Shown: positions 59,258 to 63,350 of the stretch, in pieces
Numbering within the stretch: position 1 is the stretch's first letter
How the letters are laid out: the number at the start of each line of letters is the position of its first letter
From: Fibrobacter sp. UWB2
Lineage (GTDB): Bacteria > Fibrobacterota > Fibrobacteria > Fibrobacterales > Fibrobacteraceae
NCBI RefSeq assembly: GCF_002210425.1
Contig: NZ_MWQK01000001.1
Coordinates: forward strand, 310,001 to 374,000
Reading direction: 5' to 3'
Length of the DNA: 64,000 bases
Position numbers and translations under genes: made by a program
Notes under the pieces: model-generated
Seen by the model: the letters and a program-made list of their open reading frames with translations, nothing else
The model's database searches: none
Told to the model about the DNA's origin: nothing

Positions 59258-59405
59258 AGAGGGAAATGTAGAAAAAATCTCCCTTTTCCTCGCCTTACTT
59301 TACATTTCTTGAAATATTGAGCTATCTTTATAGCGTCAAAAAGCAAAGAGGTTTTTGGCACGCTCGACGCAACTTCGCCATGAAGACGCCACACGTGCAA
59401 ACATT

Positions 59406-60908
59406 ATGAAAAAAATAATTGTCGTGAACACTCCAAAGAATTGGAAGTTCCACATTCCCGAAGCCGAAATTGTCTCGGCAAAAGACTACCTTACTAATCC
59501 AGAATTTACAACTCAGAAAAACGTTCGCGTTTTCAACTTGTGCAAAGACTACAGCTACCAGAGCAAGGGCTATTATGTAAGCCTGCTTGCCGAAGCGCGC
59601 GGTCACAAGGTCATCCCGAACGTCAAGAACATCCGCGACTTCAAAGCCCCGGCAGTCGTGAAAATCATCAGCGATGAAATCGATGAACTGATCCAGAAGA
59701 GCCTGCACAAGCTGACCGGCACAGAGTTTGTGCTCTCGATTTACTTTGGGCAAAACGTCAGTGCGCAATACCTAGAACTTTCGCAGGCACTTTACCGCGT
59801 TTTCCAGGCTCCGCTCCTGCGTGCAAAATTTGTCTTCAAGCAAAAATGGTTCATCCAGTCCATCCGCCCGATTAGCGTTGACGAAATTCCCGAAACGCAT
59901 AAGGAAATGGTTGATCAGTTCGCCATTGAATACTTCCAGAAAGACCGCTACGTCTCCCCCAAGACGGAAGATTACGTGTACGACCTCGGCATTTTAACGA
60001 ACCCCGATGAAGTGGAACCGCCGAGCAACAAGGAAGCCATCCAGCTCTTTATCGAAGCCGCACAAGATACGGGTTTCCGCGTGGAAATGATTACCAAGAC
60101 GGACTACCACCGCGTCGGTGAATTTGATGCCATCTTCATTCGCGAAACGACAAACGTCAACCATCACACATACGCATTTGCACGCCGTGCCCAGAGCGAA
60201 GGCATCGCCGTCATTGATGATCCCGACAGTATTTTACGTTGTTCCAACAAAGTTTATTTGCAAGAACTGATGACGGTCGGCAAGATTCCCTCCCCGAAGA
60301 CGATAATCGCCCACAGCGAAAACCGCCACACACTCGCGAAAGAAATCGGATTCCCGATGGTCATCAAGACGCCTGATTCCAGCTTCAGCATGGGCGTCAA
60401 AAAGGCAAACAACAAGGAAGAACTCGAAAAAATTCTCGACACGATGTTCGAGCACAGCGACTTGCTTATCGCTCAAGAATTCACGCCCACAGAATTTGAC
60501 TGGAGAATCGGTATTCTCGACGGAAAGCCACTCTTTGCTTGCAAATATTACATGGCAAAGGACCATTGGCAAATTTACAACTGGGATAGCAAGGACAAAA
60601 ACGCTGTTTGTGGCAAATGGGATTGCCTCCCGATTGAAAGCGTCCCGCACGGCATCGTGAAAACGGCCCTCCGCGTAGCAAGCCTTATCGGCAACGGCCT
60701 TTACGGCGTGGACCTCAAGGAAATCAACGGTCACCCGGTCGTGATTGAAGTGAACGACAACCCGAGTATTGACCACGGTATCGAAGACCAAGTTGGCAAA
60801 AAGAAGATTTATCTCGCCATCATGAGGAGTCTGCGCCACCGCATCGAAGACCGCCAAAACGCAGCACAGCAGAAAGTACTCCAACACGAAAGGGATATGT
60901 TTTTATAG
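59406..60908 (+). CDS. RimK-like ATP-grasp amide ligase with N-terminal RLAN-type domain
   Basis: About 500 residues from ATG 59406. The N-terminal 200 residues (KNVRVFNLCKDYSYQSKGYY, then LLAEARGHKVIPNVKNI) match the domain often fused to RimK-like proteins. The C-terminal part is an ATP-grasp fold: FPMVIKTPDSSFSMGVKKAN, AQEFTPTEFDWRIGILDG and VDLKEINGHPVVIEVNDNPS with the metal-binding Glu and Asn. RimK-type enzymes attach glutamate or similar residues to proteins or peptides. The gene lies nine bases ahead of a GCS2-family ligase gene, so the two probably act in one pathway. The substrate is unknown. Confidence 0.88.
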   Translation: MKKIIVVNTPKNWKFHIPEAEIVSAKDYLTNPEFTTQKNVRVFNLCKDYSYQSKGYYVSLLAEARGHKVIPNVKNIRDFKAPAVVKIISDEIDELIQKSLHKLTGTEFVLSIYFGQNVSAQYLELSQALYRVFQAPLLRAKFVFKQKWFIQSIRPISVDEIPETHKEMVDQFAIEYFQKDRYVSPKTEDYVYDLGILTNPDEVEPPSNKEAIQLFIEAAQDTGFRVEMITKTDYHRVGEFDAIFIRETTNVNHHTYAFARRAQSEGIAVIDDPDSILRCSNKVYLQELMTVGKIPSPKTIIAHSENRHTLAKEIGFPMVIKTPDSSFSMGVKKANNKEELEKILDTMFEHSDLLIAQEFTPTEFDWRIGILDGKPLFACKYYMAKDHWQIYNWDSKDKNAVCGKWDCLPIESVPHGIVKTALRVASLIGNGLYGVDLKEINGHPVVIEVNDNPSIDHGIEDQVGKKKIYLAIMRSLRHRIEDRQNAAQQKVLQHERDMFL

Positions 60909-60917
60909 GGGTCAATC

Positions 60918-62225
60918 ATGAGCAATTACAAACTTTGGGAACGCTTCGGCGTTGAAATGGAATTCATGATTGTCGATCGCGACACGCTGAACGTGCTGCC
61001 GCGTGCCGATGTTCCCCTCGGAAAAGACAAAGACGGCAATCAACTCTCCGATGTAGAATACGACGACATCGGACTTTCGAACGAACTTGTAAGCCATGTG
61101 TTGGAATTCAAATGCGCTCATCCCAAGTCCACATTTGACGGACTTGGCAAGCGATTCTTCCACGAGATTCGCCGTGCAAACAAGAAGCTAGAAAAGATCA
61201 ACGCGATGCTTTTGCCGAGCGCCTGCCACCCGTTCATGGACCCGGCAGAGATGCAACTCTGGCCGTACGATTGCCTCGACATTTACCAAACTTACGACCG
61301 CATTTTCAACTGCAAAGGCCACGGCTGGGCCAACTTGCAAAGCACGCACCTGAACCTTTCTTTTGACGGCGATGAAGAATTTGGCGAGCTTCACGCAGCA
61401 ATTCGCTTGCTGCTCCCGCTAATTCCAGCCATTGCCGCCAGCAGCCCGTATCTCGACGGCAAATACACCGGCTATCGCGACGCCCGCATCGAAGTTTATC
61501 GCCACAATCAGGACAAAGTCCCTGAAATCACAGGCCAAGTCATCCCGGAACAGGCGTATAGCTACGATGAATACAACAAGATGATTTTTGACAAAGTTAA
61601 GAAGGCTATCGCCCCATACGATACCGAACACTTGCTCAATCATTTCTTCTTGAACAGCCGTGGTGCCATCGCTCGTTTTGATCGTGGAGCCATTGAAATA
61701 CGCCTTGTCGATATTCAAGAATGCCCGAATGCCGACATCGCCATTGTAGAGCTTGAAATAGCAACACTCAAGGCGATTGTGAATGGCAAATTCGCGGCAT
61801 CTCGCGAAAACGCATCCGCAGCAAATTCCGTGCCGCACACGCTCAAGGAATACCGCGACTTCTTGCGCAACTTCGACACAACTCGCCTTGCCGAACTCCT
61901 CGCCAAGACCACGAAGGACGCCGAAAACACCCAAATCGATTGGCAAGAATACCTCTCCGTATTTGGCATGAATCTCGCAGACGCTACCAAAAACGCCGCC
62001 GCAGTTACCGCCGGCGATATTTGGAAGCACATCTACAGCATCGTAAAAAACGACCTCACCGAAGTCTCGCAGAGCTTCATGGAAAAAATGCTCGAACGCG
62101 GAACGCTCTCCAGCGCCCTCTACAAAGCACTCGGCGACGCCCCCACCCACGAAGCATTTGTCACCGAATACAAAAAATTAGCCGATTGCCTTGCACACAA
62201 CCGGCTCTATGGAATTAGCGAATAA
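60918..62225 (+). CDS. GCS2-family carboxylate-amine ligase (glutamate-cysteine ligase-like)
   Basis: This 435-residue protein has the family start FGVEMEFMIVDRDT (the xGxExE metal motif), the region STHLNLSFDGDEEFG, YRDARIEVYRHNQ and FDRGAIEIRLVDIQECP. GCS2-type enzymes form an amide between a carboxylate, usually glutamate, and an amine with ATP. Beside a RimK-like ligase the product may be a modified amino acid or peptide rather than gamma-glutamylcysteine. TAGGGG precedes the ATG. It converges on the APH-like gene with six bases between stops. Confidence 0.88.
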   Translation: MSNYKLWERFGVEMEFMIVDRDTLNVLPRADVPLGKDKDGNQLSDVEYDDIGLSNELVSHVLEFKCAHPKSTFDGLGKRFFHEIRRANKKLEKINAMLLPSACHPFMDPAEMQLWPYDCLDIYQTYDRIFNCKGHGWANLQSTHLNLSFDGDEEFGELHAAIRLLLPLIPAIAASSPYLDGKYTGYRDARIEVYRHNQDKVPEITGQVIPEQAYSYDEYNKMIFDKVKKAIAPYDTEHLLNHFFLNSRGAIARFDRGAIEIRLVDIQECPNADIAIVELEIATLKAIVNGKFAASRENASAANSVPHTLKEYRDFLRNFDTTRLAELLAKTTKDAENTQIDWQEYLSVFGMNLADATKNAAAVTAGDIWKHIYSIVKNDLTEVSQSFMEKMLERGTLSSALYKALGDAPTHEAFVTEYKKLADCLAHNRLYGISE

Positions 62226-62231
62226 AACCGC

Positions 62232-63086
62232 TTACAATCCCAAGTCTTTTCGAGCTACCTGGAAATTCATTTCCAGGTATTTTAAATTTGCATCTTCGGC
62301 CATCAAATGCTCAAAGTCGAGAATCGGGAACAGCACGTACGGTTTGACGCGAGCATCCACCGCCGCCAATTTCTCCGGAGTATCTGCACCAAAATAATAC
62401 TTTGCAAAAACGTCCCAGCACTTGCGCATCATCGCCGCATTCATGTAATGAGTCGCCAGCAGAAAATCATCCGGCAAATAATGGCAGAAATAGAAATAAC
62501 AACCTAAATCGAAAAGCGGGTTACCGCAGGCAAACTCGCCCAAATCGATAAAGTACGCGCCATTATCATTGACAATCAAGTTGCCCGTCTGCATATCGCC
62601 ATGGACGCAACGAGAAACCTTTGGCGTTTCTTTAATGAGATTTCGAGCAAATTCCTTGACATTCTCAGGGAACATCTTCGATTCCTCAATCAAACGCGAA
62701 TACTTTTCCTCCGCATCTTGGAACGTGCCAGGAATGCACGACGTAGAATGCAGCTTTTTGCAATGCTCTGCAAAAACCTTGATGTATTCCTCAAGATGTT
62801 CGGGATTTTCGCCCACACATTTCGAAATCGAGCGTTTCCCAACAATGCGTTCATAAATCAGACCCAAACGACCGTCCTGTTCGACAATATCGCCCACATG
62901 CGGCGTCGGGATTCCAAGTGAAACCACTTTCCGGCAAATATCCTGCTCGCGAAGCAATTCCTCCTTCGTCGAGCAAAAACCCGGAAAACCCAATTTCAGC
63001 ATCCATTTGCCATCCGGACTATTGTAGTTCTCGGAATTGTGACGATTGCTGAACATCGTCCATTGTGATAAGTCAATTTTCTCCAT
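62232..63086 (-). CDS. APH-like phosphotransferase (Fibrobacter paralogous family)
   Basis: About 284 residues from ATG 63086, chosen because the kinase fold begins there; upstream in-frame starts (GTG 63158, ATG 63104) lack ribosome binding sites too. The catalytic loop CVHGDMQTGNLIV and the metal-binding FIDLGEFACGNPLFDLG are those of aminoglycoside/choline kinase-like enzymes. Related proteins form a paralogous group in Fibrobacter genomes. The substrate is unknown; a resistance role is not implied. It diverges from the micro-gene at 63236 across a palindrome-rich promoter region. Confidence 0.82.
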   Translation of the reverse strand: MEKIDLSQWTMFSNRHNSENYNSPDGKWMLKLGFPGFCSTKEELLREQDICRKVVSLGIPTPHVGDIVEQDGRLGLIYERIVGKRSISKCVGENPEHLEEYIKVFAEHCKKLHSTSCIPGTFQDAEEKYSRLIEESKMFPENVKEFARNLIKETPKVSRCVHGDMQTGNLIVNDNGAYFIDLGEFACGNPLFDLGCYFYFCHYLPDDFLLATHYMNAAMMRKCWDVFAKYYFGADTPEKLAAVDARVKPYVLFPILDFEHLMAEDANLKYLEMNFQVARKDLGL

Positions 63087-63128
63087 AATGGTAAAATACA
63101 CCATTTTATTGGAGAAATCACAAAAAAA

Positions 63129-63166
63129 TTCACTTTTTTCAAAAGTGAACAAAATCACACCGTGAT
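63129..63166. promoter_or_regulatory. Two adjacent perfect palindromes in a divergent promoter region
   Basis: TTCACTTTT TTC AAAAGTGAA (63129-63149) and ATCAC ACC GTGAT (63154-63166) follow each other between the APH-like gene and the micro-gene. They could be operator sites for a regulator acting on both directions. Confidence 0.5.
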
Positions 63167-63170
63167 GGAA

Positions 63171-63200
63171 TTCACATTAAAAAACACGCAAAACTAAATA
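63171..63200 (+). promoter_or_regulatory. Probable promoter of the 19-codon gene
   Basis: TTCACA (63171-63176) and TAAATA (63195-63200) are separated by 18 bases, a fair match to sigma-70 boxes. The -35 box lies directly after the palindromes. Confidence 0.55.
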
Positions 63201-63235
63201 TATTTTCGACATCCAAAAAGGAAAGGAGGGTGTAT

Positions 63236-63295
63236 ATGGAACCGCATAATCGCAGTAACGAAGGCGATGATTATATTCCGCCATTCAAACCGTAA
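63236..63295 (+). CDS. 19-residue micropeptide gene
   Basis: The frame ATG to TAA encodes MEPHNRSNEGDDYIPPFKP. An almost perfect Shine-Dalgarno (AAAGGAGGG) lies five bases before the ATG, a promoter-like pair lies upstream, and a terminator follows 15 bases after the stop. No other gene uses these signals. The peptide is polar with an acidic centre (EGDD) and a Pro/aromatic end (YIPPFKP), and has no membrane segment. It could be a functional micropeptide, a precursor peptide or a leader. I do not recognise it. Confidence 0.65.
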   Translation: MEPHNRSNEGDDYIPPFKP

Positions 63296-63310: not shown

Positions 63311-63350
63311 ATGCAAAAAACGAGCCCGCAAGGACTCGTTTTTTTTGCAT
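63311..63350 (+). terminator. Intrinsic terminator of the 19-codon gene
   Basis: AACGAG, one mismatch, CC, GCAA loop, GG, one mismatch, CTCGTT, extended by ATGCAAAAA / TTTTTGCAT, is followed by T residues. The symmetry means it can also end purB on the minus strand. Confidence 0.9.

Follow-up and report, generated by a model that had tools for sequence, protein, structure and literature searches.

The window analysed here, a 64,000-nt stretch of a contig from Fibrobacter sp. UWB2, contains a 19-codon gene located between the gene of an APH-family kinase (TIGR02172, with a family of paralogues in Fibrobacter), transcribed divergently, and purB, which is convergent. The first-pass annotation had proposed this frame together with a near-perfect Shine-Dalgarno (SD) sequence at ideal spacing, and the coordinates, the peptide and the SD sequence proved to be exactly as described (Table 1). 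Based on the layout of its promoter and terminator, the gene has a transcript of approximately 135 nt. Our genome comparison indicates that the frame is a real gene, overlooked by standard annotation and carried by about one third of the Fibrobacter species examined. Fibrobacter is an important cellulose-degrading genus of the rumen whose regulation has been little studied; none of the papers returned by our literature searches dealt with small proteins of Fibrobacter or with its CRP.

Table 1. Features of the microprotein locus, in window coordinates.
Feature	Position	Strand	Remarks
CRP-type operator 1, AGTGAACAAAATCACA	63144..63159	+	9/10 match to TGTGA-N6-TCACA; centred 47.5 bp upstream of the -10 box
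CRP-type operator 2, CGTGATGGAATTCACA	63161..63176	+	9/10 match; centred 30.5 bp upstream of the -10 box
-10 element TATATT	63199..63204	+	
Shine-Dalgarno AGGAGG	63224..63229	+	ends 6 nt 5′ of the ATG
19-codon microprotein gene, MEPHNRSNEGDDYIPPFKP	63236..63295	+	frame, coordinates and peptide re-checked; kept in relatives
Invariant C-terminal tail DYIPP[FY]KP	63269..63292	+	
Intrinsic terminator	63312..63349	.	stem ACGAGcCC/GGaCTCGT with A and T tracts

A promoter-like pair of hexamers and a strong terminator of its own had also been attributed to the gene. The TATATT -10 element of this pair is real, but its -35-like partner, TTAAAA, is weak, and hexamer pairs of this kind occur near chance in the region (6 found versus 3.1 ± 2.0 expected). 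Because the pair match is not significant alone, the promoter assignment relies on conservation and not on the hexamers. The terminator exists as well, and was not listed by a simple terminator scanner; since A and T runs are present on both of its flanks, it probably serves the convergent purB too, rather than the peptide gene alone. A 140-nt fold that includes this terminator is more stable than its shuffles (z = -2.84), with the terminator hairpin as its most stable part. An Rfam search of the whole window at the gathering threshold returned only tRNA and a TPP riboswitch (RF00059, positions 405-508 on the minus strand, 58.3 bits), with no match for the peptide transcript.

Using the degenerate pattern [DE]DYIPP[FY]KP followed by a stop codon, we identified 30 copies of the peptide in 29 of 80 genomes of the genus, where the reversed pattern had no match at zero mismatches. 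The remaining 88 genomes of the phylum lacked the pattern, no match was found in viral contigs, and each of its 21 matches among 84,980 species genomes was titled Fibrobacter. All 30 copies are the ends of 17-19-codon ORFs with an SD sequence in the same position. Most of the genomes surveyed are metagenome-assembled and some are mixed; the one with two copies (G006) has 8% contamination. The retrieval bias of a pattern with a fixed tail was tested in four ways: a search with the tail only, a search with up to three mismatches, a profile, and copies found by DNA comparison only. YIPP[FY]KP alone, without the stop codon or the upstream residues, recovered the same 30 sites and no others in the 80 genomes, followed by TAA in 27, TAG in two and TGA in one. 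With one to three mismatches allowed, no remnant of the tail appeared except for one unrelated site, and no decayed copies were found in the genus, the gene being either intact or absent. The profile search gave E < 1e-6 for the 30 copies and > 0.03 for all other sequences, and its scores beyond the genus were at chance level. The DNA search (266-bp query, 61 genomes) retrieved close copies with 98, 98, 97 and 95% identity and distant ones with 83-71% identity, and the aligned copies retain the frame, the 19-codon length, the SD sequence and the stop.

The peptide is missing from 51 of the 80 genomes; its function is therefore dispensable in many lineages. In peptide-negative genomes, the loci next to purB, to gshA and to the radical SAM gene were inspected and showed neither a replacement frame nor a CRP-type site. 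Comparison with Pfam, NCBIfam, PHROGs and PDB yielded no match at E ≤ 10 for queries of 19-21 residues, a length that gives such searches little power. The family is new, although of a kind already known.

The Pro/aromatic end of the peptide (YIPPFKP), noted earlier for its distinctive character, is what stays invariant in all copies: the last eight residues, DYIPP[FY]KP, occur without exception in the 30 copies with only the F/Y position varying, and the preceding residue is always D or E. The N-terminal 8-10 residues vary freely (EPHNRSNEG, DLPSRSNDG, AKTENKKDD, TYINVKTED and FEPSNEKE, for example). The copies have net charges of 0 to -3, the tail lacks Cys, and neither computation nor inspection revealed a hydrophobic stretch or a signal peptide-like start in any of them.

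Frameshifts in related strains, or no conservation of the frame, had been named beforehand as the observations that would speak against the gene. The frame, the length of 17-19 codons, the SD sequence and the stop are kept in 30 of 30 copies, and the conservation with synonymous change that had been proposed for scrutiny in Fibrobacter was found, the changes being largely synonymous. The pN/pS ratio in the RSN clade is 0.167 in frame and 2.84 and 1.59 in the other two reading frames; under a column-permutation null, it has a mean of 0.86 and a minimum of 0.37, with none of 300 permutations as low as the observed value. Departures within the tail at codon positions 1, 2 and 3 number 0, 7 and 80. 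Considering the DNA-found copies only, the variable columns at these positions number 3, 4 and 9 for codons 2-10 and 0, 1 and 8 for codons 11-19; the copies are related by descent and their counts are hence not independent, but the direction is unambiguous. The UTRs and the codon third positions diverge between clades while the peptide tail stays, and therefore the selected product is the protein. From these comparisons, the 19-codon frame is a genuine coding gene under protein-level selection. It is a well-supported case of a protein family that gene finders miss because of its shortness and that sequence alone can reveal, argues that selection can maintain stand-alone peptides of fewer than 20 residues across a genus, and makes such peptides worth seeking through conserved promoter-SD-terminator cassettes.

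Two palindromes had been reported upstream of the gene. They exist, but are best read as overlapping readings of two CRP-type operators with the consensus TGTGA-N6-TCACA. In 27 of the 30 copies, one or both operators have their centre exactly 47.5 or 30.5 bp upstream of the first position of the -10 box; the exceptions are a spacing of 29.5 bp in one copy (G006b) and distances that are not clear-cut in two (G007 and G023). The best upstream CRP-type site matches at least 9 of 10 consensus positions in 29 of the 30 copies versus 0.5% of shuffled upstream DNA. The -10 box itself is TATATT in 28 copies and TATTAT in one (G052), and none was picked up by the scan in G007. Assuming a TSS 7 nt after the -10 box, the operator centres would be located at about -42.5 and -59.5, near the positions of class II and class I activation by the E. 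coli CRP, respectively. Given the 17-bp spacing between the two centres, simultaneous occupancy is doubtful, and both operators are unlikely to be filled at once. A near-perfect palindrome, TTCACTTTTTTCAAAAGTGAA, lies directly 5′ of the operators (63129-63149), in the closest relatives only. The start of the TIGR02172 APH-type kinase gene (62232-63107, minus strand) is approximately 47-64 bp from the CRP-type sites, and this gene may share the operators divergently.

The genome of UWB2 encodes a CRP homologue (G000:C5:344836-345543) with cNMP_binding and HTH_Crp_2 domains and the recognition helix GTTRETVSR (motif RETV.R), and E. coli CAP is among its best PDB matches. We infer that a CRP-like protein would activate the microprotein gene. 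Orthologues of the homologue, with this helix motif that matches the operators, are present in 40 of 40 good genomes, so the presence of the peptide does not follow that of the regulator. The genome of UWB2 contains 65 CRP-type sites with no more than one mismatch, versus 28 in the reversed control, and their contexts showed no clear functional theme. At three of these loci (L087, L092 and L125), the sites lie 16-22 bp upstream of a TATATT -10 box, where they overlap the -35 region, which suggests repression there; compared with this arrangement, the spacing in the microprotein promoter stands out.

In most copies, the peptide gene is located 3′ of purB and directed towards it; in some of them, the interval contains a radical SAM/SPASM gene together with a Ser-rich lipoprotein-like one, or else other genes. 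In nearly all contexts, with ligA in L072 as the exception, the gene that comes next has a convergent orientation, and a terminator hairpin follows the stop codon in most copies, within approximately 25 nt in the window. Upstream of the peptide gene, in the window (59355-62225, plus strand) and in many relatives, an RLAN-RimK ATP-grasp gene adjoins a GCS2 ligase gene, a candidate amide-ligase pair. The GCS2 gene is present in 40 of 40 good Fibrobacter genomes, with or without the peptide, and is far from the peptide gene in three (G025, G007 and G020). The radical SAM/SPASM gene is located 55-130 bp downstream of the peptide gene in about nine loci (L035, L036, L063, L064, L066, L067, L074, L076 and L078), has orthologues in many peptide-negative genomes, and does not adjoin the peptide gene in the window. 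These neighbours were considered as sources of a partner for the peptide and rejected, given that they do not track it; a partner sharing its motif was also rejected, YIPP[FY]KP being absent from every larger protein of the 80 Fibrobacter genomes.

On a tree of the CRP gene, the peptide is present in 24 of the 25 rows of one clade, the exception being a genome that is 69% complete (G038), and in five more carriers scattered among other clades, whose N-termini are divergent. Its presence requires 7 changes by parsimony versus 20.3 after shuffling. This history is best accounted for by an ancestral gene that was lost repeatedly, because the scattered copies are also near purB; transfer is a possible alternative.

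Comparison of the copies shows that the promoter layout is conserved and that the frame evolves as a selected protein. With moderate confidence, we propose that the gene encodes a CRP-activated microprotein that is free in the cytosol and is predicted to dock on a conserved partner through its C-terminal tail. A CRP-family activator would bind one or both operators upstream of the promoter with the weak -35 element and switch on a monocistronic mRNA of approximately 135 nt, whose translation from the strong SD sequence would yield a soluble, mildly acidic peptide of 17-19 residues. DYIPP[FY]KP would then act in trans as a short linear motif docking on a conserved cytosolic partner, adjusting the activity of this partner when CRP is active, while the N-terminal half would serve as a variable spacer. 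Conservation restricted to the tail is in line with such a C-terminal docking motif. The terminator within approximately 25 nt and the convergent next gene point to action in trans and make a leader peptide unlikely, there being no co-directional downstream gene to control. The invariant eight-residue tail and the strictly placed CRP-type promoter offer a direct handle on the presumed partner.

The main rival, which we consider unlikely, is action on the ribosome, as conservation is confined to the residues closest to the stop codon; the last eight residues would pause termination, as in TnaC or ErmCL, or the free peptide would bind the exit tunnel, as apidaecin does. Both peptide-bond formation and release tend to be slow with a Pro-Pro pair and a C-terminal Pro, and TnaC likewise ends in Pro. 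Like TnaC and ErmCL, the Fibrobacter gene is a short ORF with conserved residues next to its stop, a pattern that would also suit a ribosome-acting nascent peptide. Unlike them, it has its own terminator followed by a convergent gene instead of a downstream gene that a leader could serve, and all three stop codons are used. A Y-I-P-x-x-[RK]-P-like segment is common to apidaecin and the Fibrobacter peptide. Apidaecin has 18 residues, the last eight intolerant of change and the N-terminal half tolerant, and its basic penultimate residue, an Arg, and its terminal Leu contact the release factor and the tRNA (PMC11347161). The Fibrobacter peptide resembles it in length (17-19 residues), in its nearly invariant last eight residues, in its variable N-terminal half and in its penultimate Lys, but is acidic rather than cationic and is the product of a chromosomal bacterial gene without a secretion signal. 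All 30 copies end in -KP and not in the penultimate Arg and terminal Leu required of type II PrAMPs; with the critical Arg17-Leu18 of apidaecin replaced by Lys-Pro, the peptide does not belong to the apidaecin family. It is a long shot that the chromosomal, CRP-induced peptide binds its own ribosome at termination through YIPP[FY]KP, as a tempered internal apidaecin; if true, such a peptide would couple the carbon or energy state to translation.

A dual-function regulatory RNA, in which a small RNA controlled by CRP would double as the message for a peptide, is improbable in our estimate. Spot 42 of E. coli and Salmonella, an RNA that base-pairs and is repressed by CRP, offers a similar layout, its short transcript being CRP-controlled and terminated and containing a tiny ORF (SpfP); the likeness is one of layout. 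In the Fibrobacter locus, by contrast, the layout suggests activation, and selection falls on the peptide. SpfP has 15 amino acids (PMC12119635), and a title cited in that paper states that it regulates CRP. The CRP-type control, the short transcript with its own terminator and a fold better than its shuffles are all in line with such an RNA, but the terminator hairpin is the most stable part of that fold, the transcript has no Rfam match, and with UTRs and third positions diverging between clades while the tail is kept, a peptide function alone suffices.

Docking of a free microprotein must also be weighed against a role of the peptide as a substrate, either a precursor or a carrier modified by the radical SAM/SPASM maturase or by the RLAN-RimK ATP-grasp and GCS2 ligase, which appears quite improbable. 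A conserved C-terminus behind a variable leader fits a core or a carrier, and the short ORF beside a radical SAM/SPASM gene in some copies, like the ligase pair upstream, recalls such systems, the former that of the PapB-type RiPP precursors. However, both sets of genes occur irrespective of the peptide, the tail lacks Cys, co-inheritance is absent and the genes are on opposite strands; the maturase scores 180 bits versus the PapB cut-off of 340. Finally, a chance frame in conserved regulatory DNA, with no gene at all, has a negligible probability: open frames as short as 19 codons commonly arise by chance, but the synonymous change is specific to this frame, the stop and SD positions are invariant, and copies are found across clades whose flanking DNA has diverged.

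The radical SAM/SPASM family of Fibrobacter, PapB-like but below that cut-off, has up to four paralogues per genome, and its enzymes are paired with Ser-rich, lipobox-like small proteins starting with MDIRKxKVEKNxxWS. In the genome of UWB2, its members are located at G000:C1:548797-549873, C1:579663-580739 and C5:248881-249957.
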